A stretch of DNA of 64,000 nt. Origin: Rhodoligotrophos appendicifer. GTDB lineage: Bacteria; Pseudomonadota; Alphaproteobacteria; Rhizobiales; Im1. Every line of letters starts with the position of its first letter. Position 1 is the first letter of the stretch. The stretch lies in contig NZ_VHKL01000003.1 of NCBI RefSeq assembly GCF_007474605.1, forward strand, positions 161,156-225,155, written 5' to 3'. Below are positions 28,347 through 53,792 of the stretch, piece after piece. The translations under genes and the position numbers were made by a program. The notes beneath the pieces are model-generated. The model saw only the letters and a list, made by a program, of their open reading frames with translations. It made no database searches and was not told the origin of the DNA.

Positions 28347-29327
28347 TCAAGTACGTTTTGCCCGACTCGTTTGCTTGTTTGCAGCGGCTTCGGCAAGGGC
28401 CGGGGCTTCTTGGATGTTTGCAGCACCGCCCATGTCGCCATTCTTGGTGCGGCCGGCGCCGGGGCCCGCGCCCAGGTCGGCACCGGTTGTCGGATCGGAT
28501 GAGGTGTCGGACATGGTCCGTTCCATCATCTGTGTGGCGACCTTCTTGTCTTTCGAGCTGAGCGTCACGGTCGCCATTCCGTCGCCGTCGTCAGCCGGCA
28601 TGACCTCTTCGAGATTGTCGACCCGGTCCCATTCGTCGCCGGAATTCCATGGTCCGGTGGCGTCCCCTTCCCCCTGGGAGGTATTGACATACATGCTGGC
28701 ATATTTCGCGATCCCCGGCAGCTTGCCCGTCGGGAAGTTGTTCTCGATGGCGTAGAGCGCCTTCTCGAATGACTTCTGATGCGCCACCTCGCGCGTCATG
28801 AGGAAGCCGAGGGCGTCCTTGATGCCGGGATCGTCGGTGATGTTGATGAGGCGCTCATAGACGATCTTGGCCCGCGCTTCGGCCGCGATGTTGGACCGCA
28901 GATCGACCGTGGGCTCGCCCCGGGAATCGACATAGGCGGCGGTCCAGGGGACGCCGGCGGAGTCGCACAAGGCCGGTCCGCCGCCGAAGAGGATCGATTG
29001 CTTGGCTGAGGCGCCGCTGGCACCGACCATCATGTAAAGGTCAGCCTCCTTCATCTGTCCTTCGGCAAGCTGTGCCTTCAGGCCTTTGTTGAGCATGGTG
29101 ACGATGGAGCCGATCACCTCGAGATGGCTCAGTTCCTCGGTTGCGATATCGAGCAGCATATCCTTGCGGCCCATATCGTCCTCAGCCAGCCCTTGGGTGA
29201 AATACCGCATGGCGGCAGCGAGCTCGCCGTCGGCGCCGCCGAACTGTTCCATGATCATGCAGGCCAAGCGCGGATCGGGCTCGGACACACGAACGGTGTA
29301 TTGCAGTCTTTTATTGTGCATGAACAT
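28347..29327 (-). CDS. manganese catalase
   Basis: The 326-aa protein decomposes hydrogen peroxide with a dimanganese centre. The ferritin-like bundle has the metal ligand motifs: Glu in MIMEQFGGADGELAAAMRY, the EELSHLE block, the ELAARA-type stretch IAAEARAKIVYERL, and a His-containing REVAHQKSF. The start MFMHNKRLQYTVRV has a consensus AAGGAGGT 7 bases upstream, which suggests high expression. A longer upstream frame lacks this. The C-terminus is a Gly/Thr/Ala-rich tail. Likely cytoplasmic; not a heme catalase. Confidence 0.93.
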   Translation of the reverse strand: MFMHNKRLQYTVRVSEPDPRLACMIMEQFGGADGELAAAMRYFTQGLAEDDMGRKDMLLDIATEELSHLEVIGSIVTMLNKGLKAQLAEGQMKEADLYMMVGASGASAKQSILFGGGPALCDSAGVPWTAAYVDSRGEPTVDLRSNIAAEARAKIVYERLINITDDPGIKDALGFLMTREVAHQKSFEKALYAIENNFPTGKLPGIAKYASMYVNTSQGEGDATGPWNSGDEWDRVDNLEEVMPADDGDGMATVTLSSKDKKVATQMMERTMSDTSSDPTTGADLGAGPGAGRTKNGDMGGAANIQEAPALAEAAANKQTSRAKRT

Positions 29328-29546
29328 TGAGGGACCTCCTTGATGATCCGCAAACTCACCCTGTGGGGACGAGTTCCACTTTGTAGAAACGGGAAGCCGC
29401 ATCGCACCGCTCACCAGCGTGAAAGCCCGAGTTCCTGCTGGCCGTTGTGAGACAACCCCGTCATCATGTAGAGAGATGCGCTTGGAGCAGATGCAGGGGG
29501 GCAGAATGCTCGCCCATGGTCACTGCCGCCCGAACCGAGGCCTGAA

Positions 29547-30345: not shown

Positions 30346-31077
30346 CTATATGCAGCGGCCGCCATCCACCGGGAGCGACATGCCTGTCACCATGGATGAG
30401 GCGTCGGAGGCAAGCCAAAGGGCGGCCGCAGCAACATCTGCGGGCTCGACCAGCCGTCCCAGGGGGATGCCCTGACGGATCTGTTCCCAGGTCTCGGCAT
30501 CGTCGTGATCGCCGATGAAGGCCTTGATCAGCGGAGTCCGCGAGATCGCAGGACAAATGCAGTTGACCCGGACCCTGTCCTCCGCCACTTCGAGGGCGAG
30601 CGCTCGGGTCATGGTGATGACCGCTCCTTTCGAGGCCGAATAGGCGACAGCGCCGGCCCGGGGACGTAGCGCGCTGCCGGATGCGATGTTGATGATGTTT
30701 CCCCGCGACCGTGATCGGAACAAGGGAAGCACGGCGCGGCAGCACAGGAATACGCCGGTGACATTCACCTGGAACAGGTCGTTGAATTCTGCCAGGGACG
30801 TGGACTCCAGGCGGCCGGCCGGACCAACGGTCCCGGCATTGTTGATCAGGATATCGACGGCGCCGAAGCGAGTCTTGGCAGCCTCGACTATCCGCTCAGC
30901 ATCCTCCTCTCGCGTGACATCCGCCAGGACAGGCAGCAGGCGATCGCCCTCTGGTTGCCGCCCGACTTGACGATCGACCGCGACGATCGCGGCTCCATGG
31001 GCCAGGAACTGCGAGACCATCTCAGCGCCAAAGCCCGAAGCGGCGCCCGTGATGATGGCGGTCTTTCCAGCAAGCAT
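30346..31077 (-). CDS. SDR family oxidoreductase (operon end)
   Basis: This 243-aa short-chain dehydrogenase has the Rossmann nucleotide motif TGAASGFGAEM at the N-terminus, NNAGTVGPAG, and the active-site YSASKGA (Tyr and Lys intact). Ser is in IASGSALRP. It is the last of the nine-gene minus-strand operon and starts 2 bases after the permease gene. It probably reduces or oxidises an alcohol/ketone made in the pathway; the substrate is unknown. Confidence 0.93.
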   Translation of the reverse strand: MLAGKTAIITGAASGFGAEMVSQFLAHGAAIVAVDRQVGRQPEGDRLLPVLADVTREEDAERIVEAAKTRFGAVDILINNAGTVGPAGRLESTSLAEFNDLFQVNVTGVFLCCRAVLPLFRSRSRGNIINIASGSALRPRAGAVAYSASKGAVITMTRALALEVAEDRVRVNCICPAISRTPLIKAFIGDHDDAETWEQIRQGIPLGRLVEPADVAAAALWLASDASSMVTGMSLPVDGGRCI

Positions 31078-31079
31078 GG

Positions 31080-31922
31080 TCAGCCCTGTTCGGTTTTGTC
31101 CTTGGTAGATTGCTGGGTGAGCCGGTCGAAGTTAATGAATCTGGCGCTGGCAAAGAGAACGATCAGGGTCACGATGACGAGACCCGAGGCCACTGCCGTG
31201 AGCTGCGGATCCAAGGGCGAGAAACGCAGCGCATCGAAGATGCGGACCGGCAGAGTGACGACCCTTGGCGTATTGAGGAAGATTGAGATCGACGCGTCGC
31301 TGAAGGAGACGAGAAAGGCCAGTCCCCAACCGACCACGAGACTCCAGGAGACCAGCGGCAGCGTGACATGGCGGAAAGTGCGCAAGCGGCTGGCTCCCAG
31401 ACTGCGAGCAGCCTCTTCCAGGGTCGGATTGACGAGACGAAGGCCGGCACCGATCAGGGTCACCGCATAGGGTGTGACCAGCACGATATGGCCGGCGATC
31501 AGCGCGAAGACCGTGCCGCCAATGCCAATCCGGGTATAAGTCTGGAGAAAACCAAAGCCGAGGACCACGGAAGGCATCATCATCGAGGAGACGACCAGAA
31601 GCCAGAGGACGACGTTCATCCGTGTTCGGTACCGGATGAGGGCGATGGAGACGGCAAGCCCCACGAGGCCCGCGACCGTCGAGGCAAGACCGGCAATTCC
31701 AAGGCTGAGACCGAAGGAATCGATCATCTCGGGTCGGTCGAAGACTTGCGAATACCACTGGAGGGTCAGTCCCACTGGCGGAAAGACCACATATTGGGTG
31801 GTGGTCAGCGAGCCCAGCGTGATCGCGGCGATGGGAGCCAGGAGGAGAATCTGTACGAGGCCGACATAGGCGTAGAGGGCGCCGCGGCTGAAGCGTCCTC
31901 CAAGACCTTCGGATCCGGACAT
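31080..31922 (-). CDS. ABC transporter permease, PotC-like
   Basis: A 280-aa inner-membrane permease with six predicted helices. The cytoplasmic EAA-like loop EEAARSLGASRLRTFRHVTLPL (about residues 180-200) couples it to the ATPase. The start MSGSEGLGG lies 1 base after the preceding permease stop. It pairs with the PotB-like permease to form the membrane channel of the importer. Confidence 0.93.
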   Translation of the reverse strand: MSGSEGLGGRFSRGALYAYVGLVQILLLAPIAAITLGSLTTTQYVVFPPVGLTLQWYSQVFDRPEMIDSFGLSLGIAGLASTVAGLVGLAVSIALIRYRTRMNVVLWLLVVSSMMMPSVVLGFGFLQTYTRIGIGGTVFALIAGHIVLVTPYAVTLIGAGLRLVNPTLEEAARSLGASRLRTFRHVTLPLVSWSLVVGWGLAFLVSFSDASISIFLNTPRVVTLPVRIFDALRFSPLDPQLTAVASGLVIVTLIVLFASARFINFDRLTQQSTKDKTEQG

Positions 31923-31923
31923 G

Positions 31924-32826
31924 TCAGTTCCCTCCGTCCGCGGCGATCGACCGCCTGCGCGCCAGGGCACCATTCAACATCTCAAGGCCACGCCAGCCAC
32001 TGAGAATTCCCGTGGTGCAGACCACGAGAATCACCGACATGCAGGCGGCAAACGGCCAGTTCAGGAGCGACATGCCCTGCTGATAGATGAGCACCGACAT
32101 GACCTTGACCTGCGGCCCGGCGACCAGGGCCGGAACGGCATAGGCGCTCATGCTCAGTGAGAAGACGATCAGACTTCCGGCAGCAAGCCCCGGCAGGCTC
32201 AGGGGCAGGACGATGGCCATGAACGCGCGGCGTCCGCTGGCTCCGAGACTGCGCGAGGCCAGGACGAGGTTCCAGTCGAGACTGCGCAGCGAGGCCGAGA
32301 CCGCGAAGATCATGAAGGCGCAATTGGCGTAGACGAGGCCCAGGACCAGTGTGAACTCACGGAAGACCAGCTTGACTGGGCTGTCGACGAGACCCAAGCC
32401 GATAAGGGTGTCGTTGACGATACCCTTTGTGCCGAGAATGATGAGCCAGCCATAGGCGATGACCACAGGGCTCGTCACCATCGGCACGATCAGGACGATG
32501 AGCATGAAGGTGCGGAACCGGCTTTCGGTTCGGGCAATGAAATAGCTGATGGGATAGCCGGCGACGGCGCAGATAACGGTGATCATCAGGGAAATCCTGA
32601 TCGTGCGCCAGAGAACGCCGAGGTAGAAGGAATCGGTCAGGAACTTCGTATAGAAGTCGAACTGGAAGGCTGAAGAGGCGCCCGTGATCGGATCGAAACG
32701 GTCGAGGCTGCCCCGGAAGAGTTGATAGACCGGCAGTCCGTAGAGGACGGCGAAGAGGATGATGGGGAGCAGGGCCAGCAACAGCCACTGCAGATGACCG
32801 GATGATCCCGATGACGGCTGGCTCAT
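31924..32826 (-). CDS. ABC transporter permease, PotB-like
   Basis: A 300-aa membrane protein with six helices, and an EAA-like loop, ASRSLGASGRRAFMAIVLPL, in the usual place. The ATG (MSQPSSGS) overlaps the stop of the ATPase gene as ATGA. Homologues are the first permease of spermidine/putrescine-type importers; the actual substrate is set by the binding protein and is not known here. Confidence 0.93.
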   Translation of the reverse strand: MSQPSSGSSGHLQWLLLALLPIILFAVLYGLPVYQLFRGSLDRFDPITGASSAFQFDFYTKFLTDSFYLGVLWRTIRISLMITVICAVAGYPISYFIARTESRFRTFMLIVLIVPMVTSPVVIAYGWLIILGTKGIVNDTLIGLGLVDSPVKLVFREFTLVLGLVYANCAFMIFAVSASLRSLDWNLVLASRSLGASGRRAFMAIVLPLSLPGLAAGSLIVFSLSMSAYAVPALVAGPQVKVMSVLIYQQGMSLLNWPFAACMSVILVVCTTGILSGWRGLEMLNGALARRRSIAADGGN

Positions 32827-33989
32827 CGCGCGCCACCGGAGAAGATCAGGGTATCCGCAATGTCCCACGCGACATGCACGCGGTCCCCTGCCCTAAAGGC
32901 AGAGTTGCGACCTCCTGTGGACCAGACGTGCAGTACCAGCGCCCCGACTCGAACCCGGTATTCCATCCTATGGCCGATATACTGGGAGCGCTCGACGACA
33001 CCCTCAAGATCGGTCGAGCTGGACGGCGCGTTGTGTGACGGCCCTTGAGCACTCAGTCTGACGCGTTCGGGGCGAATGAGAAACCGGACGGAAGAGGCAT
33101 CCGGCGTGCGGGGGCTGTCCTTGACACCGACAGAGCCAAGGCCCTCGATCTTCACTGAAGGATGGCCGCCGGCCGTGCTGTAAACGCCATCAAAGGCATT
33201 GGAACCGCCGACAAAGGTTGCCACAAACTCGTTGCTCGGAGCCTCGTAGATGTCGGAGGGTGACCCGACCTGCTCGATCCTGCCTGCACGCATCACGATG
33301 ATGCGGTCGGCGATCGCCATGGCTTCCTCTTGGTCATGGGTGACCATGATTGTAGAGATGCCCAGTCGCTCGAGGAGTTCCAGCAGCTCGCTGCGCATCT
33401 CCAGCCGCAGGCGGGCGTCGAGGTTGCTAAAGGGCTCGTCGAGAAGCAACAGGCTGGGCTGAATGATGACGGCACGCGCGAAGGCGATGCGCTGCTGCTC
33501 GCCGCCGGAGAGCATGGCAGGCTTCTTGGCCCCCGCGTTTGGGAGACGCACGAGCGTCAGCGCATCGCTCACGCGGGCGCGAATTTCGCTCTCGCTCTTC
33601 CCCCGCATCCGCAAGCCGAATGCGACGTTGTCATAGACCGTTAGGTGGGGGAACAAGGCGTAATTCTGGAACAGAATGCCGATGTTTCTGTGCTCGGGCT
33701 GGACGCCGAGCATGCTGCGGCCTTCGATGGAGAGCCGGCCGCTTGTCGGCGCCGTAAAGCCGGCAATGACCCTGAGGCAGGTGGTCTTGCCGCAGCCGGA
33801 GGGACCTAAGAGGCAAACCCGTTCCCCTGACGAGACCTGGAAGCTGACTGAATCCAGTGCGCGCTGCTCTCCAAATGTTACGACGAGTTCGTCGATTCTC
33901 AGGTAATCCGGCTTTTGAATAGGCCCTCCACTGAGTGATCCTGTCGATTTTTCCCCGCTGGCCCCGATGGGTTTGTAGATCGTCATCAC
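32823..33989 (-). CDS. ABC transporter ATP-binding protein, PotA-like
   Basis: The 388-aa ATPase energises the importer. Walker A GPSGCGKT is at residues 62-69, the signature LSGGEQQR around 160, and Walker B LLLDEPFSNLD follows. The C-terminal part is a TOBE-type regulatory domain typical of polyamine and iron importers. The start could be either of the first two Met codons. It is in an operon with both permeases. Confidence 0.95.
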   Translation of the reverse strand: MMTIYKPIGASGEKSTGSLSGGPIQKPDYLRIDELVVTFGEQRALDSVSFQVSSGERVCLLGPSGCGKTTCLRVIAGFTAPTSGRLSIEGRSMLGVQPEHRNIGILFQNYALFPHLTVYDNVAFGLRMRGKSESEIRARVSDALTLVRLPNAGAKKPAMLSGGEQQRIAFARAVIIQPSLLLLDEPFSNLDARLRLEMRSELLELLERLGISTIMVTHDQEEAMAIADRIIVMRAGRIEQVGSPSDIYEAPSNEFVATFVGGSNAFDGVYSTAGGHPSVKIEGLGSVGVKDSPRTPDASSVRFLIRPERVRLSAQGPSHNAPSSSTDLEGVVERSQYIGHRMEYRVRVGALVLHVWSTGGRNSAFRAGDRVHVAWDIADTLIFSGGAR

Positions 33990-34020
33990 CCCTGCGCCCC
34001 GCCGTCCATCACCAATCTCG

Positions 34021-35121
34021 TCATGACAGGCCGGCGGCGGCTGAGTGCCTGCCGGCAGCGACGGTCGGCGCGCTATGATGGGCGCTGGAGGACAGCATCG
34101 GCAAGACTTCCGTTCCGAACAGTTCCATCGATCGGAGGGCTGAGCGATGCGGCAGTGAACCGAATTGGAACATGAAGCTCACATGCGTTGGGTTTAGCAG
34201 CTGAAAGTCTTCCGCCAGGATCGAGGCGACCCGCTCGGGGCTGCCGATGGGGGAGAATTCGATGATCTCTTCCAATGACGGCTCGTCGCGGAAGGGAAGT
34301 TCACGCAGCATGGCGCCGTCTAGTTGCTCCGCATTGGCCCGAAGTCCTGCTCCGAGACGCAATGTGTAGCGAATATTCTCCGCCGCCTTGATCTCCTCGT
34401 TACGGTTCTTGGTGACATAGATGAAGCGCTGAGTGGCAAAGGCCATATCTTCGGGAGAGCGTCCGACCGACGTCCAGATTTTTGCGATCGCCTCCTTCGA
34501 TTTCAGAGTCGTGGAGGCGGGTCGGTGATGCTGGCCGATGAAGGGCACGTAATTGTTGCGGGCGATCCGCTCCTGAATTGAGATGTCCTGGGTCAAGCCA
34601 GCCACATAGACCTGCGGCATCGGCTTCTGCTGTGGCTGGAGGCCGATCGGTGTGTGGTCGATTTTGAAGTGCTTGCCCTGATAGTGGATCTCGCCGGTCC
34701 GATAGGCCATTTCGATCATATCGAGCAGCTCGCTGAACATGGCGGGGCCGTCCTTCAGATCGCGACCGAACTGCCTGAACTCATAGTTCTGGTATCCGCC
34801 GCCCACACCCAACTGCAGGCGCCCGTCACTGATCTGGTCGACAAAGGCGATCTCCTCGATCAGACGCACGGGCTCATAAAGTGGAAGAACGAGAACCGCA
34901 GGGCCGACATTGATCCGCTTCGTTCGTGCTGCGCAGTAGGCCGACATGATCAGAGGTGACGGGATCATGCAGTAATTTGAAAAATGATGCTCGGCGAACC
35001 ACACCGTATCGAAATCGAGCTGTTCCGCCATCTGGCAGAGTTCCATCGAGTCCAGGGCGAGCTGCTGGGGCGATTTGCTCGTGTCACGCCGCGGCATTAG
35101 GTTGAAGAGGCCGAAATTCAT
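34021..35121 (-). CDS. LLM class flavin-dependent monooxygenase 1
   Basis: This 366-aa protein is a luciferase-family TIM barrel that uses reduced flavin and O2. The motif TVWFAEHHFSNY (about residues 38-50) is the family's active-site region; the ISDGRLQLGVGGGYQ block follows. It is a paralogue of the gene at 39012, which begins in the same way (MVTLGLF). Start MNFGLFNL chosen; a Met five codons earlier is possible. The reduced flavin would come from the reductase at 41095. Substrate unknown. Confidence 0.9.
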   Translation of the reverse strand: MNFGLFNLMPRRDTSKSPQQLALDSMELCQMAEQLDFDTVWFAEHHFSNYCMIPSPLIMSAYCAARTKRINVGPAVLVLPLYEPVRLIEEIAFVDQISDGRLQLGVGGGYQNYEFRQFGRDLKDGPAMFSELLDMIEMAYRTGEIHYQGKHFKIDHTPIGLQPQQKPMPQVYVAGLTQDISIQERIARNNYVPFIGQHHRPASTTLKSKEAIAKIWTSVGRSPEDMAFATQRFIYVTKNRNEEIKAAENIRYTLRLGAGLRANAEQLDGAMLRELPFRDEPSLEEIIEFSPIGSPERVASILAEDFQLLNPTHVSFMFQFGSLPHRSALRSMELFGTEVLPMLSSSAHHSAPTVAAGRHSAAAGLS

Positions 35122-35153
35122 TGTGCTTGTTCCCATTGCGTGCTCGTGCGGGG

Positions 35154-35912
35154 TCAGACGCCCACGATCGTGTCGCCGCCATTCGGGCTTAGAACCTGGC
35201 CGGTGACGAAGCTGGCTTCCGAGGATGCGAGGAAGATCACCGGGTAGGACATTTCCTCCGGCTCCGCCAAGCGGCCGAGGGGGATTGCCTTGGCCTGCGC
35301 TTTCACGGCCTCGAGGCCGTCGACCTCCACCTGCATTTCGGTTTTCACAGCGCCGGGAGCCACGGCGTTGACGCAGATGTTGTGCGGCGCGAACTCCTTC
35401 GCCCAAGCCTTGGTGAGTCCGAGGATCGCTGCCTTGGCGGCACAGTAGGTCGCGCCGAAATGATGGCCGGTCATGCCCCAGATGGAGGAGATGTTGACAA
35501 TCCTGCCCGACCGGCGGGCAATCATGCCCGGTACCGCGGCCTGGGTCGTGAAGATCGTCCCTTTGACATGGACTCCGAACATGCGCTCGTAGAGGTCCTC
35601 GGTGATACCGTCCAGCCCTGCGCGCTCGGCGGAAATTCCGGCATTATTGATCAGGATGTCGATACCGCCGAACTCGGCTTCCCCTCGCCGGACCACGTCC
35701 TGCATGTCGCCGGGCTTGGAGACGTCGCCGCAGGCGACGAGGCACCGGCCACCCTTGTCCCGAATGCGCCTTGCAGTCTCCTCGGCCCAGGCCTCGTTGA
35801 TGTCATGGATGACGACGGCCGCCCCACGGGCTGCGAGAATTGCGGCGTGCGACCGTCCCATGCCGCGACCCGAGCCGGTGATCAACGCCGTCTTGCCGGT
35901 AAAGTCAGCCAC
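35154..35912 (-). CDS. SDR family oxidoreductase
   Basis: A 252-aa short-chain dehydrogenase. NAD(P)-binding TGSGRGMGRSH at the N-terminus, NNAGIS, catalytic Ser in ISSIWGM and Tyr-Lys in YCAAKAAI are all intact. It lies 32 bases upstream of the LLM gene and 37 after the aminotransferase. Likely acts on a hydroxyl or keto intermediate of the same pathway. Confidence 0.93.
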   Translation of the reverse strand: MADFTGKTALITGSGRGMGRSHAAILAARGAAVVIHDINEAWAEETARRIRDKGGRCLVACGDVSKPGDMQDVVRRGEAEFGGIDILINNAGISAERAGLDGITEDLYERMFGVHVKGTIFTTQAAVPGMIARRSGRIVNISSIWGMTGHHFGATYCAAKAAILGLTKAWAKEFAPHNICVNAVAPGAVKTEMQVEVDGLEAVKAQAKAIPLGRLAEPEEMSYPVIFLASSEASFVTGQVLSPNGGDTIVGV

Positions 35913-35949
35913 GTTTCGCTCCTGGTTACAAGGGTTCCGGACGCGACCG

Positions 35950-36873
35950 TCAAACGGCCGTCGACCATGTCGGGTCGCTGTGCTTCTGCCAGTAGAGATC
36001 GAGGATGGCGCTGGTCACGGTGCCGACCCCGCCATTGCCGACAGGCGCGCCATCGATCTCCGTGACCGGCATGACTCCGCCCGCCGTGGATGTGATGAAC
36101 ACCTCATGGGCACCGCGCAGGGCGTCCGCCGTGAGCGTCCCTTCGCGAAGGTTGATGCCGAGTTCCTTGGCCAAATCCTTTGTGATGCCGCGAGTGATGC
36201 CTTCAAGAACGCCGGCGGCAGGGGTCAGAAGGGCGCCATCGGCGACGGCGAAGATGTTGAAGCCGGGGCCCTCGGTGATATTGCCGTCGAGATCGACGAG
36301 CACCGCGTTCTCGGCGCCGCGGTCATAGGCTTCGAACATCCCGCTGACCAGATCGAGCCAATGATAGTTCTTGATGCGCGGATCCACTGATTGCGGAGCA
36401 ATGCGCGGAATCTTGCTGATGATCAGCTTCAGCCCGCGCCGGCGCTGCTCCTCGTTGGCGATCCAGCCGAAGGGAATGGCGAAGGCGATGAAATTGTTGC
36501 GGGCGTCGCGTGGATCGCGGCTGAAGGTGGGCGAGATGCCCCGGGTGCAGATCATCTCGACATAGGCGTCTTCGAGGCCGGAGCGGCGAACGCATTCATG
36601 GAGGATTTCGATCAGCCTCGCACGATCGAAGGGAAGGCTGAGCCGCATCCGCTCCAGATTCAACAGGAAGCGGTCGATATGCCGGTCTTCGCAAAAGAAC
36701 CGCCCTTTCCAGACATGGACCACGTCGTAGGTGGCGTCTGAGCGCAGGAATCCCCAATCAAGGACCGATAGCTTCGCCTCTGCGATCTCGCAGAACTCGC
36801 CATTGGCGTAAGCTGTGCCAGGCGGGTAGCGGAGTGTTCCCGCATTTGTGGAAGATTGCTGGTCCAAAATCAT
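35950..36873 (-). CDS. class IV PLP-dependent aminotransferase
   Basis: A 307-aa fold-type IV enzyme related to branched-chain and D-amino acid aminotransferases. Lys168 (RIKNYHW) is the pyridoxal-phosphate lysine, and the motif EGPGFNIFAV is the phosphate-binding loop. The start MILDQQSS is the only good candidate within the frame that avoids overlapping the SDR gene. It could add or remove an amino group from a pathway intermediate; the type of substrate is not readable. Confidence 0.9.
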   Translation of the reverse strand: MILDQQSSTNAGTLRYPPGTAYANGEFCEIAEAKLSVLDWGFLRSDATYDVVHVWKGRFFCEDRHIDRFLLNLERMRLSLPFDRARLIEILHECVRRSGLEDAYVEMICTRGISPTFSRDPRDARNNFIAFAIPFGWIANEEQRRRGLKLIISKIPRIAPQSVDPRIKNYHWLDLVSGMFEAYDRGAENAVLVDLDGNITEGPGFNIFAVADGALLTPAAGVLEGITRGITKDLAKELGINLREGTLTADALRGAHEVFITSTAGGVMPVTEIDGAPVGNGGVGTVTSAILDLYWQKHSDPTWSTAV

Positions 36874-36901
36874 AGCCGTCGCTCTCGCCTCAGTGGTTTT
36901 C

Positions 36902-37642
36902 TCAACGGACTGTGCCGCCGTCGACCATGATGTCTTGGCCGGTGATGTAGCTGCTGTCGCTGTCGGCGAGGAAGCCAACCGTACGGGCGACTTCCTCCAG
37001 GGTGCCAGCCCGTTGGAGCGGGATGTTCCCCACGAGCTCCGCAGGCCACGAGTGATTGTCCAGAAAGCCTGGCATGACGTTGGTCATGCGAATGCCGTCG
37101 CGGCCGTAGCGAGAGGCATATAGCTTCGCGAAGCCGGTGAGGGATCGTCGGACCGTCGCCCCGAAGGGATAGGCCACGCAGGGTGCCACGGCAAACGCAC
37201 TTGAGATATTGACGATCGACCCGCCCCCCGCAGCCTGCATGTGGGGCGTGACGATGCGCGCCATGCGCACCACCGGAAGGAACTGGAGGTCCATCATGGC
37301 GTGCCAGTCCTCGTCCGGGATCTCCAGCAAATATCCGTCGGGGGACAGCTCATAGGAACTGCGTTCCGGTGACGTCGACCATGTGGGATTGCCTGTGCTG
37401 TTCACCACCGCATCGATTCGTCCATGCTGCGTCATCGCAAGGTCGACGAGGGCCGCCAGGTCCTCGGTCTTCTCCACCGAGCCCGTAACAGCATGGCCGT
37501 CGAGCTCCGCGGCGACGGCGGCGGCCGAACCCGACAAGGACATGAGCACGACGCTGAACCCGCGCCTCGCCATCTCCCGGGCACAGGCGGCACCGATCCC
37601 CCGCCCCGCCCCCGTAAGGACCGCCACACGCCGATCACCCAC
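36902..37642 (-). CDS. SDR family protein with altered active site
   Basis: A 246-aa Rossmann-fold SDR with TGAGRGIGAAC and ISSAFAVAP. The usual YxxxK is not conserved: the candidate reads YPFGATVRR, so the fourth residue after Tyr is Ala rather than Lys. The remainder, including IRMTNVMPGF and ITGQDIMVDGG, looks like a typical SDR. It may have a different catalytic set or a non-oxidoreductase role. It sits second in the operon after the binding protein. Confidence 0.87.
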   Translation of the reverse strand: MGDRRVAVLTGAGRGIGAACAREMARRGFSVVLMSLSGSAAAVAAELDGHAVTGSVEKTEDLAALVDLAMTQHGRIDAVVNSTGNPTWSTSPERSSYELSPDGYLLEIPDEDWHAMMDLQFLPVVRMARIVTPHMQAAGGGSIVNISSAFAVAPCVAYPFGATVRRSLTGFAKLYASRYGRDGIRMTNVMPGFLDNHSWPAELVGNIPLQRAGTLEEVARTVGFLADSDSSYITGQDIMVDGGTVR

Positions 37643-37714
37643 TCTGATACTCCTGCCGCTGCCGAGCCATCCGATGCCGAGAAGATGCGGGGAACCCTGT
37701 GGTCCCCGCGCCGC

Positions 37715-38785
37715 TCACTGAACCTCGATTTCCTTGTTCCAACGCTCGGTCCATGCCGGGAGCTGCTTGTTCAGATAGGTCCAGTCGATCGGCACGATCT
37801 TGTCGCCATTGGCTGGGGGTGAGGTGATGACCGAGCTCATGTCTGGCGGCAACGTCGCCTTCTTGTTCACAGGCAGCCAGCCGAGCTTCTGGGCCATGAT
37901 CTCCTGCGCCTGTTGGCCCACCAGGAAGTTGACGAACTTGGTCGCCAATTCCGTGTTCTTTCCGTTCTTGACGACCGCGATGCCCGCCTGAATCGCCGCT
38001 GTCCCTTCCTTGGGGAAGACGAACTTGATCGGGAAGCCGGTACGATGCGCGTAGGAATAGGTCTCGCTGTCAGTCCAGACACCGACCCAGGCCTCGCCTT
38101 GCTGGAAATAGGATGTGAGGTCGGCGGTGGTGTCGAAGTTGAAGATGTTCGGCTTGATCTTGACCATCTCGGCGAAGCCGGGTTCGATATTCTCCTCCGA
38201 GCCGCCATTGGCACGAGCAAGCAGGATCAGCAGCATGTGCGTGTAGCTGATCGAGATCGAACTCACGATCACATGGTCCTTGAGATCCGCCCGCGCGAGA
38301 TCATTCCAGCTGGTCAGCTCTGGAAGGTTGTTCTTCTTGAATTCATCGGGATTGTAGGCGAGGCCGAGCCGAAACAGGCCCCAGCCGAGACCCATGCCAT
38401 TGGGCAAGTGCGAAACCTCCTGAATGTCGGCAGCATTGGGCATCTCCGCTGGTGTAAGGGTCTGAAGCAAGCCCATGCCCGCAGCCTGGATCATGGGGCC
38501 GTCATCGATGCAGGCCACGTCAATCTGTGGATCATCCTTCTGGGCCTGCAGCTTGGCAATGGTCGCCACTGAATTGCCCGTGAGATAGGTGACGGTGGCG
38601 CCTGTCTCCTTCTCGAAAAGGGGGATCAGTTCCTGGCGGATGAAGGTCTCTGGAGCTCCGGGGTAGCAGGCGAGGACGATGGACCCGGCAGCCATGGCGG
38701 GTGTCGGTGCGAGACCTTGGAAAAGCGACGTCGTCGCCAGGGCCGCAAGAGCGATATAGGCGCGGATTCTCAGTCGTTTCTTCAT
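37715..38785 (-). CDS. ABC transporter substrate-binding protein, PotD-like
   Basis: The 356-aa periplasmic protein is the first gene of the operon. It has a signal peptide (KKRLRIRAYIALAALA, cleavage near AMAA, about residue 33), then a bilobed family 1 binding-protein sequence with YNPDEFKKN and VWTDSETYSY. It would capture the substrate and deliver it to the PotBC-like permease. Polyamine-type ligands are only one possibility; nitrogen-bearing organic anions and others use the same family. Confidence 0.93.
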   Translation of the reverse strand: MKKRLRIRAYIALAALATTSLFQGLAPTPAMAAGSIVLACYPGAPETFIRQELIPLFEKETGATVTYLTGNSVATIAKLQAQKDDPQIDVACIDDGPMIQAAGMGLLQTLTPAEMPNAADIQEVSHLPNGMGLGWGLFRLGLAYNPDEFKKNNLPELTSWNDLARADLKDHVIVSSISISYTHMLLILLARANGGSEENIEPGFAEMVKIKPNIFNFDTTADLTSYFQQGEAWVGVWTDSETYSYAHRTGFPIKFVFPKEGTAAIQAGIAVVKNGKNTELATKFVNFLVGQQAQEIMAQKLGWLPVNKKATLPPDMSSVITSPPANGDKIVPIDWTYLNKQLPAWTERWNKEIEVQ

Positions 38786-39011
38786 GTCAGACCCCTCTCA
38801 ATCCCACAGATGCAGACATATCCAGTGCGTCATTTGCCTTGTTGCTCGCAGTCTTTGCAGTTCGCTGCTGGGCTTCAAACAATCGTTTCTAAAAGGCAGC
38901 ACTGCTGGTACCGCCGCTTATGGAAGTGTTAGCAGGACTAATTTGCCTGAGGCGGTCTTCTGAACTTAGCATTGCTGTCCTCAAGGACGCGCGATCCTCC
39001 TGCGGAGCGAC
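38786..39011. promoter_or_regulatory. divergent control region of the catabolic cluster
   Basis: The 226 bases between the binding-protein gene (minus) and the second LLM gene (plus) must contain both promoters. The LLM ATG has GGAG 5 bases upstream. I found no certain promoter boxes or operator; the LysR regulator encoded at 40096 is the obvious candidate to act here. Confidence 0.45.
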
Positions 39012-40088
39012 ATGGTCACTCTCGGACTGTTTAGCCTTATGGGTCTCTATGACCGGAACTCCTCTCCGGCTTCAGTCCTGAAGACGACCGTAGATGCTGT
39101 GCGAATGGCCGAGGATTTCGGCTTCGACGTGGCATGGTTCGCGGAGCATCACTTCACCAATCATTCCATCTGCCCATCATCTCTCATGATGGTGGCTCAT
39201 TGTGCGCCGGAGACGTCGAAGATCCGGCTCGGCTCGGCAGTCTTGGCGCTGCCGCTCTACCAGCCCCTCAAGGTGGTTCAGGAGATTGCCTTCGCCGACC
39301 TGCTGACTCGGGGCCGCCTCGTTCTGGGGATTGGTTCGGGCTACCAGCCCCATGAATTCGATCGCTACAGGGTCGATCGCTCGGAGAAGCATGCACGACT
39401 GCTGGAGGCGTGGACGATCATCGAACAGGGTCTGACGTCAGGGGTCGTGCGCTTCAAGGGTCGCCACTTCGACATTCCCCGCACGGAACTGTCGATGCGG
39501 CCCTTCGGACTTGCCATGCCCGAGGTCTTTTTAGCCACCAGCGATGCACAGGCCGTTGCGCGGGCCGCCCAAGGGGGCCACACTCCCTTCATGTCGTTCG
39601 GTCATCGCGGACTTGATCATGCTCTTGCGGTTCGAAGCGTCATCGCCGAGCATTGGTCCAAAACGCCGGGTGCAAGCCCGGAAATGCCGCTGGGTGTCAT
39701 GCGCTTCGTCTATGTGACGGATGATGAGGCGGATGCCCGCCATGCAGCGCAATGCGTGCGCGACCTGGCTCGCGCCGGCGAGACGCTGCGAACCGGAGAG
39801 GGCCGACGCATGGATGGTCCCTTCCTCAGGCTGATGCCGCTCAATGATGAACCGCCTTTGGAAGACTTTCGGGAGAAGGCGGTCATCGGACCTGCCTCCT
39901 ACTGCGTCGACAAGCTTGGCCAGGAGATCGAGGCCTTGCGCCCGACGCATCTCGCCTGTCTCATGGGATTTGCCGGAATTGGCAGGCGAGAGACCCTCGC
40001 ATCCATCGAGCGCTTCGGCTACAGCGTCATCCCTCAGCTCGCCGATGTCTTCAGCCTGCGCGACGGCGACCTCATGGGCGCGGCGTGA
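39012..40088 (+). CDS. LLM class flavin-dependent monooxygenase 2
   Basis: This 358-aa luciferase-family enzyme begins MVTLGLFSLM and has VAWFAEHHFTNHS (residues 38-50) and RGRLVLGIGSGYQ. It resembles the LLM protein at 34021 along its length. It is divergent from the minus-strand operon and is followed after 7 bases by the LysR gene, so both are likely cotranscribed. It should need FMNH2 or a similar reduced flavin; the substrate is unknown. Confidence 0.9.
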   Translation: MVTLGLFSLMGLYDRNSSPASVLKTTVDAVRMAEDFGFDVAWFAEHHFTNHSICPSSLMMVAHCAPETSKIRLGSAVLALPLYQPLKVVQEIAFADLLTRGRLVLGIGSGYQPHEFDRYRVDRSEKHARLLEAWTIIEQGLTSGVVRFKGRHFDIPRTELSMRPFGLAMPEVFLATSDAQAVARAAQGGHTPFMSFGHRGLDHALAVRSVIAEHWSKTPGASPEMPLGVMRFVYVTDDEADARHAAQCVRDLARAGETLRTGEGRRMDGPFLRLMPLNDEPPLEDFREKAVIGPASYCVDKLGQEIEALRPTHLACLMGFAGIGRRETLASIERFGYSVIPQLADVFSLRDGDLMGAA

Positions 40089-40095
40089 GGCGCGC

Positions 40096-41088
40096 ATGAA
40101 CAAGCATCAGCCAGTGCTTCACCCGGTGACCATCGCGGTCCCGGATCGTGGTGCCGGCGATGAGACCCAGGCACCACCCCAACTTCCGATCCAGGGAAAA
40201 CCGTTCCGCCTTCCCCCTCTGAATCTGTTCAGGGTCTTCGACGCTGCGGCGCGTCTGGGAAATTTCTCGGCTGCCGCCGAGGAGCTTTGCGTCACGCCCT
40301 CGGCCGTCAGTCAGCAAATCCGCCAGCTCGAAGACCTGCTGGAGGTCCGTCTTTTCCGCCGCCTGCCGCGCAAGATGGAACTGACGCGGGAGGGGACCGT
40401 GCTTGCAAGCGCGGTCTGCGAGGGCCTGTCGCTGTTTGTCGCCGCCTGCCAAAAGATCGTCGACCCCAACGAACCGGCGGTCCTGTGTATCAATGCTCCA
40501 GCGTCGATTGCATCGCGGTGGCTGGTCCCCCGCCTGAAGCGATTCATGCAGCTCAATCCACAGGTGAAGATCACATTGCTGGCCTCCAACGACGCCGTGG
40601 ATTTCGACCGCCAGGACATCGATGTGGCGCTACGGTGGGGGAACGGGCGCTGGCCCCATGCCAGGGTGGAGCGTCTCGGCCATGGCCGGCTGTTTCCAGT
40701 CTGCAGCCCGGCCCTGTTGCGCGAGGGGCCGCCCATCCATCATCCGCACGACCTTAGACATCACACGCTTCTTCAGGTGGTGGAAGGCAGTTTCTGGTCG
40801 GCCTGGTTTGCGGCGGCCGGCGCGGACCGGGGGGAGTCCAGCGACAAGCTCTATTTCAACGATGTGGGGTTGATGCTGGACGCGGCCGTCCAGGGGCAAG
40901 GACTGGCGCTGGCGAACCAGCCGCTGGTTGAGAGCGACCTGAAGTCCGGGCGGCTCATCAGACTCTTCGAGACCGAAATCGAGACCGGCGAGGGATATTA
41001 TGTTCTGACCAGCCCTGACTTTTCAGAGAAGCCTGCGGTCGCAACCTTCCGCCACTGGATCCAGACGGAGGGCGAAGAAGGTGCCTGA
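40096..41088 (+). CDS. LysR-family transcriptional regulator, GcvA-like
   Basis: A 330-aa regulator. After an unusual 40-residue N-terminal extension comes the helix-turn-helix (LNLFRVFDAAARLGNFSAAA to SAVSQQIRQLEDLL, about residues 43-82) and a C-terminal ligand-binding domain (about 130-315). GAGG CGCGC precedes the ATG. A GcvA-type regulator in this position probably controls the divergent operon in response to the pathway substrate. Confidence 0.92.
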   Translation: MNKHQPVLHPVTIAVPDRGAGDETQAPPQLPIQGKPFRLPPLNLFRVFDAAARLGNFSAAAEELCVTPSAVSQQIRQLEDLLEVRLFRRLPRKMELTREGTVLASAVCEGLSLFVAACQKIVDPNEPAVLCINAPASIASRWLVPRLKRFMQLNPQVKITLLASNDAVDFDRQDIDVALRWGNGRWPHARVERLGHGRLFPVCSPALLREGPPIHHPHDLRHHTLLQVVEGSFWSAWFAAAGADRGESSDKLYFNDVGLMLDAAVQGQGLALANQPLVESDLKSGRLIRLFETEIETGEGYYVLTSPDFSEKPAVATFRHWIQTEGEEGA

Positions 41089-41094
41089 GGACAA

Positions 41095-41682
41095 TCAGGA
41101 GAGGGCGAGGAAATTTCCTTGCCTATAGATGAGCCCCTGCTGGGTGCGGCCGATGTGAGTGCCGACCACAGAGCCCACGAAGATCGTATGAGTGGTGCAA
41201 ACGACCGAACTGACCACCCGGCAATCGAGCGCCGCCAGAGCATCTGCAAGCACAGGTGCACCAGTGACAAGGGAAATCCATTCGCCTCGGTCGAAGCGAT
41301 CGACACCATGGACGCCTGTTCTGCCGGCAAAATGCGCAGCAAGGTCGTCATGGTCAGCCGCGACGATGTTGACGCAGAAATGCCGGACCCTCTCGATGGC
41401 GCCATGGCTTTCGGAGGTTCGGTTGACGCAGATCAACAGCGTCGGCGGCTCCGCGGAAACCGAGCAGACGGCCGTAGCCGTCAGGCCGCGACGATCCTCT
41501 GCGGTTCCGGTGGTGATGATCGTCACCGAAGAGGCCAACTGGCGCATGGCAGCGATAAAGTCGACCGGCGGGGTCTTCGGGTCCGGCCGCCCGTGCAGGT
41601 CAGCACCGGTGAAGGAAGGCGATTGCACGAAGTGCTCCTGGGCGCGCAAGGGGATCGTGGCGTCGTCAGCAGACGATCCCAT
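41095..41682 (-). CDS. flavin reductase domain protein
   Basis: A 195-aa NADH:flavin oxidoreductase of the DIM6/NtaB type. The block DFIAAMRQLASSVTIITTG is the usual start of the fold, followed by GLTATAVCSVSAEPPTLLICVNR, a flavin-binding region. It supplies reduced FMN or FAD to partner monooxygenases. It converges with the LysR gene (6 bases) and is close to both LLM genes, forming the expected two-component monooxygenase system. Confidence 0.92.
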   Translation of the reverse strand: MGSSADDATIPLRAQEHFVQSPSFTGADLHGRPDPKTPPVDFIAAMRQLASSVTIITTGTAEDRRGLTATAVCSVSAEPPTLLICVNRTSESHGAIERVRHFCVNIVAADHDDLAAHFAGRTGVHGVDRFDRGEWISLVTGAPVLADALAALDCRVVSSVVCTTHTIFVGSVVGTHIGRTQQGLIYRQGNFLALS

Positions 41683-41820
41683 GAGGGTAACGCCCTCAAG
41701 GCGGCAGAGGTCAAACGAGGGCTTCTAATGATGGTTTAAGCAGGAAGCGGCGCCAAGCCGACCATTAGCACAGCTTTAAGCGCAGTCGAGTGTCAAGCAA
41801 TCGGGGCCAGGGAAACCATC

Positions 41821-42735
41821 ATGACTTTGCCAGAGGAACACACGGTAATCACCGCGGACCACGTGATCTATCATTTTCATCCCGACCTCGAGGCAAAGTG
41901 GCATGTGGCGCCGCACGAGCAGGTGGAAATCCGCTGTCCGGACGGGGTGCATGGGCAGATCCGCACCGAGCAGGATCGCTATGTTGCAGTTGACTATGAT
42001 CACATCAATGATGCCGTGGGACCGATCCATGTGGCGGGAGCCGAACCCGGTGACCGCCTGATTTTCGATATTCACGACATTCAGATTCCCCAGGACTGGG
42101 GTTACGTTCTCGTCATCCCGAATTTCGGGCTGCTGCAGGCGAAGGTCCAGGAGGCCCGCACGAAGATTGTCCCCATCAAGGACGGCTGCGTCCATTTCGA
42201 CGGCATGCGAATTCCCCTCGATCCTTGCATCGGCACAATCGGTGTGGCGACCCATGAAGGACGCTACAATACGGTTATCCCCTTCGACCACGGTGGCAAC
42301 ATGGACACGACTGCCATCCGCGCCGGGGCCCGGGTGCATTTCCCTGTGAATCAGCCGGGAGGGCTCATTGCCATGGGTGACGCAAAGGCAGTGATGGGCG
42401 ACGGCGAGGTCTGCGGGACGGGAGTGGGCGTTCCCATCAACATCTTCGCTCATTTCGAGGTTGTGAAGGGCGGCCGGCTGTCGAGGCCGGTGATCGAAAC
42501 AGCTGGCGAATGGCAGTTCATCGCCAGTGCGGAAACTCTCGAGCAGGCCTGCATCCTCGCAAATGAGGACCTGATCGGCGCCCTCATGCGCAGCAAGGGC
42601 CTGCCCTGGGCGGACGCCTACATGCTGACCAGCCTCGTCGGCCAGTTGCGGATCAGCCAAGTCGTCGACCCGCTCATGACGGTCAGGATGGCGATCTCGA
42701 AGGACTATCTGCCCACCCTCGACAAAATGGCTTAG
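41821..42735 (+). CDS. acetamidase/formamidase family protein
   Basis: The 304-aa protein has the family pattern: PDGVHGQIRTEQD, AGAEPGDRL, IGVATHEGRYNT, HGGNMDTTAI and GDAKAVMGDGEVCGTG, with conserved His and Asp residues. It hydrolyses short amides to ammonia and an acid in characterised members. AGGGAAACCATC precedes the ATG. It would release nitrogen from an amide formed by, or fed into, the LLM pathway. Whether it belongs to the same transcript as its neighbours is uncertain. Confidence 0.92.
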   Translation: MTLPEEHTVITADHVIYHFHPDLEAKWHVAPHEQVEIRCPDGVHGQIRTEQDRYVAVDYDHINDAVGPIHVAGAEPGDRLIFDIHDIQIPQDWGYVLVIPNFGLLQAKVQEARTKIVPIKDGCVHFDGMRIPLDPCIGTIGVATHEGRYNTVIPFDHGGNMDTTAIRAGARVHFPVNQPGGLIAMGDAKAVMGDGEVCGTGVGVPINIFAHFEVVKGGRLSRPVIETAGEWQFIASAETLEQACILANEDLIGALMRSKGLPWADAYMLTSLVGQLRISQVVDPLMTVRMAISKDYLPTLDKMA

Positions 42736-43811: not shown

Positions 43812-44948
43812 ATGAAAAAGCACACGCCAGTCGTAATCTTATCGACTGCTGATTTCGACTCAAGGATATGGACAAATAAGCAACACATAGCGGTAAGATT
43901 ATCTAAGATATGCGATGTGTATTATATCGAGTCGCTTGGTCTACGAACCCCTAAAGTAAATTTTGAAGATGTCCGAAGAGTTGCAGGTCGTTTTTTTGCG
44001 GCAATCCCAGGGCATCGAACACAATCATCTAACAAAGATAAAATTCACAATCTGGTAGTTATTTCTCCCTTCGTTTTGCCGTGGCATAATTCTACCACTA
44101 TTCGCTCAATAAATAGATTATTGATTAGAATATTGATGAAAAGGAAGTTGCCAGATCGCTATATTCTTTGGACTTTTTCTCCCCTGACGTATGACTTGGA
44201 GCAATCTGCAGTCTCAGTAATTTACCATTCGGTTGATTTACTGCACAAATTGCCGGGGATTCCGAAAACAGTCTTGCTCAATCAGGAAAGGCGGCTAATC
44301 AGTCGGGCGGATGCTGTCATAGCATCAAGCAAAGGAGTAAAGGATCATATAAAAACGCAGGGAGGTGAAGCTCTTTTATGGGAGAATGTAGCTGACATTG
44401 AGTTATTTTCTTCTCATCAGTCATATGAACGCGAACGCCGAGCGATTTTTGTCGGTAATCTAACGCAGTCAAAAGTCGACTTCGCGATCCTAGAAAATTT
44501 GATTCGGTTAAATGTGCGGATTGCGCTAGCCGGACCTTGCTCAATAGACGGCACACAGCGCGACCCCTTACTGAATAGGATTCTGCAGTCTAAGAACGTT
44601 ACTTATTTGGGTGTACTTACACAAAAAGAAATGGCTGTAGAGCTTGGTCGTAGTTGGGTCGGAATTATACCGTACCACATTAATGACTATACCAATGGTG
44701 TTTTCCCGATGAAGATATACGAATACTTAGCGTCTGGGCTCCCCGTTATAGCTACGAAACTACGTAGTCTTAATTCACTGGCCATAGATGGTCTCGACTT
44801 GGTTTCTTCAGACGAGTTCGCTTCACGGGTGTTACATCTTTGCGAGTCCGAGCGCAGAGCGCCTGCTGGCATTTACGACAACAATAGCTGGGAAGCACGT
44901 TTGGCTCAGATACAGGATTTGCTCAGGCGTATAGGAGGAGCTGGCTGA
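43812..44948 (+). CDS. glycosyltransferase, family 1/4 type
   Basis: A 378-aa GT-B type enzyme beginning MKKHTPVVILSTADF. The pattern resembles TuaH-like transferases: ILWTFSPLTYDLE in the middle, then a Rossmann-like second half with AIFVGNLTQSKVDFAILE and the donor-binding YEYLASGLPVIATKL. It would add a sugar to a lipid-linked repeat unit. The gene has low GC. The flippase gene follows after 4 bases. Confidence 0.87.
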   Translation: MKKHTPVVILSTADFDSRIWTNKQHIAVRLSKICDVYYIESLGLRTPKVNFEDVRRVAGRFFAAIPGHRTQSSNKDKIHNLVVISPFVLPWHNSTTIRSINRLLIRILMKRKLPDRYILWTFSPLTYDLEQSAVSVIYHSVDLLHKLPGIPKTVLLNQERRLISRADAVIASSKGVKDHIKTQGGEALLWENVADIELFSSHQSYERERRAIFVGNLTQSKVDFAILENLIRLNVRIALAGPCSIDGTQRDPLLNRILQSKNVTYLGVLTQKEMAVELGRSWVGIIPYHINDYTNGVFPMKIYEYLASGLPVIATKLRSLNSLAIDGLDLVSSDEFASRVLHLCESERRAPAGIYDNNSWEARLAQIQDLLRRIGGAG

Positions 44949-44952
44949 AAAA

Positions 44953-46227
44953 ATGGTGCAATCTATCCGTCACTTTCTACCACTAGCACGGAGTTGGGCT
45001 GCATATGCAGTATTGCCAGCAGCAGGTCTGATCACTGCTCCAATCCTCGCGCATGCTCTAGGTCCTGAGGGAAGGGGTCAATTGGCGGGAATGCTTCAGC
45101 CACTAGTGCTCGCTAGCGCTATTGCCGCATTAGGAGTTCCGTCGGCAGTAACATTTTTCATCGGAAGGGGTGTTCAGGCCGGCAGAGTTTCTGAAATTGC
45201 AGTGAGAATTTCGGCTCTGTTAACACTATTCGTGGCAGTCGGACTTTTTTTTTATTCGTATACTGTGGCGCAGCAAATTGGAGTAGACCGTAATTTAATG
45301 CTTTTGGTATGGCTGGCGTTTCTTCCAAGTGCCTTCATCTCCATTAGCAGGGCGCGTCTACAAGGTATCCGAAGATATGGAGTGCTCGATTTGGAGCGAG
45401 TTTTAGCCTCCGTGTTGAGAGTGGGGCTAATTGCGATTTTGTGGGCAGGGGCAGTATCTAACGTTTTCATCTACTCGGCAGTTTATATGGCTTCTGGTCT
45501 CATTGCCTCCAGCGTTTTGCTCTTTTCGACGCAGGTAAGGGCGAAATCTGTTGCGCATTCTAGGGAAGTTGAGTTGCCGGCGAGTGAGATGGCCCGTTAT
45601 GCTCTGTTCGCAAGTTTCGGAACAGTGGCAACAGCAGTAAGCGCCCGGCTAGACCAAGCTATTATGCCAGCAGCGGTATCCCCTATTGAGCTTGGATATT
45701 TCTCCGTGGCCGTGGCTGTCGCTGAGGTTGCCAATATTATAACTACTGTTGCGATTAGAAACGTTCTTGCTGAAGTCAGTTCTAAAGTTAGTCTAAGATC
45801 AATATTAAGATCGGTACTCATTGGAGGTGCATGCCAATTTGTGCTAATTTTGATCATACTTTCGATTATTCCATTGGCCGTCCCTATTCTCTTCGGAAGC
45901 GATTTTTCTCCAGCTTCAGATCTTATTCGTGTATTGCTCATAGGCTCTTTCGTGGCTTATTGGTCGAATGTTACGTTTGCTTTTCTTTCTGGATTGGGAA
46001 GGCCGGGACTTTCCTCTATTGGGCCCGCCTCTGGTGTCGCAAGCACCATTTTTTTGTTTTGGTTTTTCTGGAATGATTTGACCGCCAATATCGCAGCGTG
46101 GATCAGCGTGGTCTCCCAATCAACCATGTTTATTGCCGGTATGTTTCTGACTGGTTGGGTCTTAGCAATGCGCCGGGATCTATGGGAGGATGATTGTTCA
46201 TCAACGAAAAATCGCGCGAGGAAGTGA
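44953..46227 (+). CDS. Wzx-like polysaccharide flippase
   Basis: A 424-aa inner-membrane protein with about 12 hydrophobic segments, of the oligosaccharide flippase (MOP) superfamily. The first helix and loop read PAAGLITAPILAHALGPEGRG, a family hallmark. It moves lipid-linked repeat units across the inner membrane. It starts 4 bases after the glycosyltransferase stop and is followed by the acyltransferase after 3 bases, indicating one transcript. Confidence 0.9.
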   Translation: MVQSIRHFLPLARSWAAYAVLPAAGLITAPILAHALGPEGRGQLAGMLQPLVLASAIAALGVPSAVTFFIGRGVQAGRVSEIAVRISALLTLFVAVGLFFYSYTVAQQIGVDRNLMLLVWLAFLPSAFISISRARLQGIRRYGVLDLERVLASVLRVGLIAILWAGAVSNVFIYSAVYMASGLIASSVLLFSTQVRAKSVAHSREVELPASEMARYALFASFGTVATAVSARLDQAIMPAAVSPIELGYFSVAVAVAEVANIITTVAIRNVLAEVSSKVSLRSILRSVLIGGACQFVLILIILSIIPLAVPILFGSDFSPASDLIRVLLIGSFVAYWSNVTFAFLSGLGRPGLSSIGPASGVASTIFLFWFFWNDLTANIAAWISVVSQSTMFIAGMFLTGWVLAMRRDLWEDDCSSTKNRARK

Positions 46228-46230
46228 TCA

Positions 46231-48889: not shown

Positions 48890-48938
48890 TGATAGGAATT
48901 ATCCAAAGCCCCCAATTATGATCCGTCGGGAGAGTTAA

Positions 48939-49754: not shown

Positions 49755-49784
49755 CGAGCATGACATCAGCTCGAAGCAATCTCT

Positions 49785-52538: not shown

Positions 52539-52616
52539 AGGCTTGAGAAATACATCTAAAGTGAAATATTAAAGCGGTCTTTACAACTCCAATGAATTAA
52601 ATTTTATGTGAGATAG

Positions 52617-53714: not shown

Positions 53715-53792
53715 GCAAATAGGTTCTCGCTCTGCAACGCGCTGAGTGCGGTTTAAGGGTTGTAGGCGTGAGCTTGGTATGAGGAGCAGGGT

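Follow-up and report, generated by a model that had tools for sequence, protein, structure and literature searches.

A gene cluster at positions 30346–42735 of the window, which is the whole 64,000-nucleotide stretch of Rhodoligotrophos appendicifer DNA analysed here (contig NZ_VHKL01000003.1), was found to encode an ATP-binding cassette (ABC) importer, two luciferase-like monooxygenases (LLM-A and LLM-B), a flavin reductase, three proteins of the short-chain dehydrogenase (SDR) fold, a class IV aminotransferase, a LysR-family regulator and an amidase. We read it, with an even chance of being right, as an inducible set of genes for the catabolism of a polar amine or amino-alcohol. A preliminary description of the same DNA had proposed uptake, oxidation by the LLMs and removal of nitrogen by deamination or deamidation. 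Uptake, LLM oxidation and deamination are best supported, by homology, by the recurrence of the parts in other genomes and by evidence for a shared operator; deamidation was not supported as proposed. The gene set was not found described in the literature covered, which was open-licence PubMed Central (PMC) text.

Gene content and organization of the cluster

Every gene type named in the preliminary description was recovered by reading-frame analysis and family scans as an open reading frame within 30346–42735. Its layout of divergent transcripts required correction, as the reductase lies on the minus strand and the transcription units number four, not two. Nine genes form a minus-strand operon in the order SBP-SDR3-AT4-SDR2-LLM-A-ATPase-perm1-perm2-SDR1, which spans 38785 down to 30346 with intergenic gaps of −4 to 72 bp. 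LLM-B and LysR lie on the plus strand, divergent from this operon and separated from it by 226 bp. The flavin reductase gene, on the minus strand, converges with LysR (6 bp from the LysR end) and diverges from the amidase, which starts 138 bp away on the plus strand. The genes are as follows.

37715..38785, minus strand: SBP, ABC importer substrate-binding protein (SBP_bac_8; nearest NCBIfam models PhnS and PotD-like, far under their cut-offs)
36902..37642, minus strand: SDR3, SDR-fold protein of a clade without the YxxxK catalytic pair
35950..36873, minus strand: AT4, aminotransferase of class IV (fold type IV) whose closest relatives of solved structure are (R)-selective amine transaminases
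35154..35912, minus strand: SDR2, short-chain dehydrogenase
34021..35136, minus strand: LLM-A, luciferase-like monooxygenase of the predicted flavin mononucleotide (FMN) type
32823..33989, minus strand: ABC importer ATPase, PotA/PhnT type
31924..32826, minus strand: perm1, ABC importer permease 1, PotB-like
31080..31922, minus strand: perm2, ABC importer permease 2, PotC-like
30346..31077, minus strand: SDR1, short-chain dehydrogenase, YxxxK read from the sequence
39012..40088, plus strand: LLM-B, luciferase-like monooxygenase, with 61–73% orthologues in module B (below)
40096..41088, plus strand: LysR-family regulator
41095..41682, minus strand: flavin reductase, RutF/HpaC-like
41821..42735, plus strand: FmdA/AmdA-family amidase

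The 5.6-Mb source genome carries 37 luciferase-like monooxygenase genes, and the presence of LLMs alone is therefore not notable here. Judged by sequence comparison, the grouping exceeds chance, since both of its blocks recur elsewhere and conservation extends jointly to LLM-B, LysR and a promoter motif.

Recurrence of the two blocks in other genomes

Ninety-one LLM loci were scanned, consisting of the best 80 from a scan of named genomes, 10 from the family of the source genome and one Ochrobactrum locus; the named-genome sample is biased and its counts are lower bounds. A complete Pot-type transporter was present in 14 of the 91 loci, all of which also contained an LLM and at least two SDRs (henceforth module A). 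Seven of these 14 encode a class III aminotransferase. Homologues of the flavin/FMN reductase queries, drawn from two reductase families, were found in six of the 14 and not in the other eight. The joint occurrence of transporter, LLM and reductase, which the preliminary description had expected of homologous clusters, was thus observed in part, several of the eight remaining loci being truncated (6.7–15.5 kb); contig ends interrupt several of the 14. The locus of Ochrobactrum sp. MT180101 is strikingly similar to the window cluster, with a Pot-type importer, SDRs, an LLM, an FMN reductase, RidA and a class III aminotransferase. This aminotransferase falls in NCBIfam NF005685 (PRK07483; 735 bits against a cut-off of 485), a family that states no function. 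An SDR adjoins the focal LLM on the same strand in 17 of the best 80 loci, and SDR2 shares 57% identity with the SDR that lies immediately before the LLM in module A (L013). Copies of module A also occur in the source genome itself (G000; loci L016 and L025) and in its family (L017 and L021), giving the source genome at least the window locus, L016 and L025 of the importer-SDR-LLM-aminotransferase kind. This module looks like a widespread, undescribed alphaproteobacterial route of amine breakdown.

Orthologues of LLM-B (61–73% identity) were identified in nine of the 13 named genomes queried and in six other genomes of 397 in the order. Thirteen of these 15 neighbourhoods were fetched, the remaining two being covered by L075 and L095. 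LysR adjoins LLM-B in 12 of the 13 (50–74% identity), and 11 contain a homologue of the flavin reductase (44–58%); loci of this kind are henceforth module B. A second LLM was found in 10 of the 13 fetched stretches, one of them 7 kb off, and in L171 and L172 it lies shortly beyond the stretch (L057 and L060), bringing the count to 12 of 13. The importer in L174 is of the LivKHMGF type in place of the Pot type. Modules A and B adjoin, as they do in the window, in Rhizobiales bacterium Y(2018) and Aestuariivirga sp. YIM B02566 (L057/L171 and L060/L172). These two composite loci are near-identical (97–100% in the query proteins) and therefore count as one case.

Promoter motifs and regulation

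Three sites were located in the window with matrices built from the regions upstream of LLM-B orthologues.

38928..38947, plus strand: LysR-box-like site GTTAG-N5-CTAATTTGC in the divergent promoter region, 20.7 bits
38875..38896, plus strand: second block of promoter conservation CAAACAATCGTTTCT, a weak match in the window, 10.8 bits, within chance
41711..41732, plus strand: second-block-like site between the flavin reductase and the amidase, 17.0 bits

The site ATWAG-N5-CTAAT was found upstream of LLM-B with at most two mismatches in 10 of the 13 orthologous regions, with three mismatches in one, and was missing from two. When a matrix from the 10 regions was applied, with the window left out of training, the best window site was that at 38928, at 20.7 bits compared to a top score of 16.2 in 20 simulated windows. 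A predicted LysR-box-like operator in the divergent promoter is therefore well supported by motif conservation. The second block is kept with at most five mismatches in nine of the 13 upstream regions. Its matrix (11 regions) gave 17.0 bits at 41711, the top of 40 simulated windows being 16.9, 18.4 bits at 49592 in an AT-rich stretch, and no more than 10.8 bits at 38875, where the block would be expected; a regulatory link to the reductase and amidase is only suggestive. The pattern RTTAGNNNNNCTWWW was chosen after the sequence was seen and was not used as evidence.

It is decidedly unlikely that the operon, the LLM-B-LysR unit and the amidase are neighbours without a functional connection. 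The conserved operator sits exactly in the divergent promoter that the first two share, and modules A and B adjoin in L171/L172 too, if as a single case. Functional separation would be in keeping with the four transcripts, with the Liv-type transporter that accompanies the LLM-B module in L174, and with an FmdA that has no conserved link to such clusters.

Luciferase-like monooxygenases and flavin reductase

LLM-A and LLM-B are 37% identical. The nearest folds to the predicted structure of LLM-A (mean predicted local distance difference test score, pLDDT, 87.2) were luciferases (8cbb, 3fgc and 1luc), RslO1 (7bip) and the diketocamphane type II Baeyer-Villiger monooxygenase (4uwm and 5aec). SsuD/MsuD, RutA and the F420 enzymes ranked lower, with one F420 entry about equal to RutA. 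LLM-A is accordingly modelled with a bacterial-luciferase fold of the FMN type, and the cluster contains the separate flavin reductase expected of a type II Baeyer-Villiger system. Scores against the NCBIfam luciferase alpha and beta models (cut-offs 600 and 500) were well below threshold, at 109 and 84 bits for LLM-A and 71 and 58 bits for LLM-B, and the flavin reductase scored 145 bits against the RutF model TIGR03615 (cut-off 254.75). The best plasmid match of LLM-A, from Ochrobactrum sp. MT180101, is only 45% identical. In a tree of 52 LLM rows, LLM-B groups with the LLM-Bs of module B (98/85), and LLM-A falls in the half that holds 11 of the 13 module A rows, outside their main clade.

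Precedents for such enzymes come from two papers, one on an LLM that performs Baeyer-Villiger oxidation of progesterone in the course of its degradation (PMC12239570) and one in which SDRs of SAR202 genomes are proposed to prime alcohols for FMN-dependent Baeyer-Villiger enzymes (PMC5395668). LLMs serve biosynthesis too, and RslO1 is a close fold match to LLM-A. A biosynthetic cluster for secondary-metabolite tailoring is extremely improbable, however, given the dedicated importer, the LysR regulation and the lack of scaffold-making enzymes at 30–43 kb.

Aminotransferase AT4

AT4 matches PF01063 (2.2e-45) and has the class IV fold. Its closest relatives of known structure carry the titles amine transaminase, omega-transaminase or branched-chain aminotransferase (BCAT). 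The best match, an amine transaminase, scored 266 bits; the D-amino acid aminotransferase 1daa reached 111 and IlvE of E. coli 105. The pyridoxal phosphate (PLP) lysine of AT4 is aligned in the printed matches to solved chains, and the aligned residue is catalytic in (R)-selective transaminases according to passages of PMC3907554 and PMC4255305. Passages of the latter give motif 1 of the Nectria (R)-transaminase as H, Y, V and S, and motif 2 as F, V and E together with V-R-G-A. In alignments made by eye, AT4 has R, Y, V and H at the motif 1 positions, the same R being present in 9k35, which is titled an (R)-selective transaminase. At motif 2 it has Y, V and E, kept or similar, and T-F-S-R where Nectria has V-R-G-A, so that half of this motif is retained. 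Both BCAT arginines (Arg40 and Arg97) are absent from AT4, with H and E at the equivalent places in the alignment to amine transaminases (equivalences from passages of PMC4255305). From these alignments, AT4 is probably an (R)-selective-type amine transaminase.

Amine transaminases of class III tend to be (S)-selective and those of fold-type IV (R)-selective, so the exchange of aminotransferase class relative to module A may point to a substrate of the other handedness or just to a different amine. The cluster could on this basis be a stereo-swapped edition of a conserved alphaproteobacterial amine-degradation pathway, with an (R)-selective-type fold-type IV enzyme in place of class III acting on the mirror-image amine; we consider this rather unlikely. 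If true, the swap would give the (R)-amine transaminase family a physiological pathway. Opposite substrate chirality would also hint at the natural role of the (R)-selective amine transaminases used in industry, and predicts pairs of growth substrates.

Two candidate associations of AT4 were set aside. A conserved AT4-SDR3 pair was rejected on finding that the SDRs adjoining AT4 relatives in Variovorax and Salipiger are only 24–26% like SDR3. The rhizobial operon of AT4 with KBL (glycine C-acetyltransferase) was rejected as a template, KBL being present in two of 30 AT4 loci and absent from the window cluster. The arrangement Lrp/AsnC, class IV aminotransferase, glycine C-acetyltransferase recurs in L179, L180, L181, L182 and L185 (rhizobial and Ancylobacter plasmids), where the aminotransferases are AT4 relatives of about 58–61% in a different setting. 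One AT4 relative (46%) lies 5 kb from an LLM-SDR-SDR group in a genome of the same genus (G003; L024).

Short-chain dehydrogenases, importer and amidase

The YxxxK pair is present in SDR1 and SDR2 and absent from SDR3 as well as from all 11 of its aligned relatives (12 rows including SDR3). A reading of all three as ordinary dehydrogenases is not supported. At E <= 1e-40, members of the SDR3 clade occur in 110 of the 387 genomes searched from the order.

All importer components scored below the NCBIfam Pot equivalog cut-offs (PotA 345 of 482 bits, PotB 168 of 348, PotC 132 of 326 and PotD 64 of 582). The distance of these transporter models from their thresholds, the conservation of two to three SDRs beside the LLM and the preference of AT4's nearest characterised relatives for secondary amines argue against a polyamine-like route, in which an imported primary amine would be converted to an aldehyde by the aminotransferase and to an acid by the LLMs acting as luciferases do, with the SDRs serving side functions; nor is a need for an aldehyde dehydrogenase-like step evident. 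Such a route is unlikely. It would be consistent with PotABC/PotD and PhnS as the nearest transporter models, and with about 50% identical AT4 relatives that adjoin acetylpolyamine-deacetylase-like genes in Variovorax and Salipiger. Luciferases, the top sequence and fold matches of LLM-A, would supply the chemistry, as bacterial luciferase oxidises aldehydes (PMC5395668).

The amidase belongs to Pfam FmdA_AmdA and scored 72 bits against the formamidase model NF045496 (cut-off 500). The amidase step proposed earlier was not upheld as part of the pathway, as none of the 14 comparable loci contains FmdA and the tie in the window consists of adjacency and a weak operator match. In Ancylobacter tetraedralis (L168) an FmdA homologue (38%) does occur close to LLM-B; it stands next to Liv-type ATPases there and may belong to an unrelated amide-uptake unit. 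This homologue, the acetamidase/formamidase family membership of the amidase and the closeness of the reductase to RutF would suit a different reaction, in which the LLM and RutF-like reductase open the ring of an N-heterocycle or amide, as RutA/RutF do with uracil, after which the product would be deformylated or deamidated by the FmdA-type amidase. We consider this quite improbable, given the low RutF score, a fold match to RutA more distant than that to luciferase, the absence of FmdA from the 14 module A loci and the possibly unrelated setting of FmdA in L168.

Other features of the window

The stretch 43812–56000 falls to approximately 46–50% GC (46–48% in most 2-kb steps) compared to about 60% around it. 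Genes for a glycosyltransferase and a flippase-like protein at its start are reminiscent of a surface-polysaccharide island. A manganese catalase family protein is encoded at 28347–29414; its nearest matches are only 33–34% identical in two genomes of the same genus, with none in a third family member.

Proposed pathway

In the catabolic reading for a polar amine or amino-alcohol, the compound would be taken up by the Pot-type ABC importer, and AT4 would strip the amino group, probably at a carbon carrying a small substituent, to leave a ketone. SDR2 and SDR1 would then oxidise neighbouring alcohols to ketones, whereupon LLM-A and LLM-B, supplied with reduced FMN (FMNH2) by the RutF/HpaC-like reductase, would insert oxygen beside the carbonyl in a type II Baeyer-Villiger-like reaction and so cut the skeleton. 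The FmdA/AmdA-type amidase may act on a small amide or formamide and so free ammonia. LysR would control the divergent promoter, and perhaps also the reductase/amidase pair, so that the units would be co-induced.

Several observations weigh against this pathway. No esterase or lactonase is present in the cluster, although a Baeyer-Villiger ester would need one. LLM-A forms a long branch in the tree, and no orthologue of it was detected among 396 other genomes of the order (E <= 1e-110) or among 375 further genomes drawn from the class (E <= 1e-100). Since neither sample yielded an orthologue, this particular combination may be of recent origin, its coherence being judged from relatives at 35–45% identity. 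The operator match in the reductase/amidase gap is barely above simulation. Homologues of FmdA and of AT4 were each found in 0 of the 14 module A loci, and neither gene has a conserved link to the LLM clusters scanned, save in L168 and L024. The neighbourhoods of AT4 in other genomes are diverse. Pot-type ATPases were not enriched near AT4 (17 of 30 AT4 loci, 18 of 37 LLM control loci), and a complete Pot-type transporter was present in two of the 30. An amide-hydrolase theme, with a deformylase, aminoacylase, deacetylase or amidase often beside nine plasmid relatives of AT4, was dropped when it appeared in 8 of 30 AT4 loci and 7 of 37 control loci, a count whose query set was picked from the plasmid regions themselves and in which some loci are short.

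Comparison with known systems

By sequence comparison the cluster appears to be a variant of two-component LLM catabolic clusters, set apart by the aminotransferase swap. Type II Baeyer-Villiger two-component monooxygenases (diketocamphane, and the LLM of the progesterone pdc cluster) likewise combine a luciferase-type oxygenase with a separate flavin reductase in catabolism; identity is low, at about 20% in the fold match to 4uwm/5aec, and the window cluster has two LLMs, an importer and an aminotransferase. The Rut pyrimidine pathway (RutA/RutF) shares the pairing of an LLM with a RutF-like reductase, whereas the window cluster is without other Rut genes, its reductase is under the RutF cut-off and RutA is a weaker fold match. 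With the (R)-selective amine transaminases of fold type IV, AT4 shares the active-site lysine region and, as aligned by eye, appears to keep most of motif 1; it differs in a partly unconserved motif 2 and in its setting in a putative catabolic operon.

The closest parallels are the recurring modules. Module A loci (Ochrobactrum sp. MT180101 plasmid CP061774.1 and Bosea sp. Root483D1) likewise have a Pot-type importer, an SDR directly upstream of the LLM, further SDRs, an aminotransferase and often a flavin/FMN reductase. Their aminotransferase is of class III and their regulator RpiR, compared to class IV and LysR in the window; gene order differs, and no FmdA homologue was found in them. Module B loci (Ancylobacter, Rhizobium lusitanum and others) likewise have LysR beside LLM-B, a second LLM, an SDR, a flavin reductase and the same promoter motif. 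They differ in the Liv-type importer of L174, the sole fully annotated locus, and AT4 was not found in the scanned pieces. The composite loci, in which both modules adjoin, carry a class III aminotransferase where the window has class IV together with the amidase.

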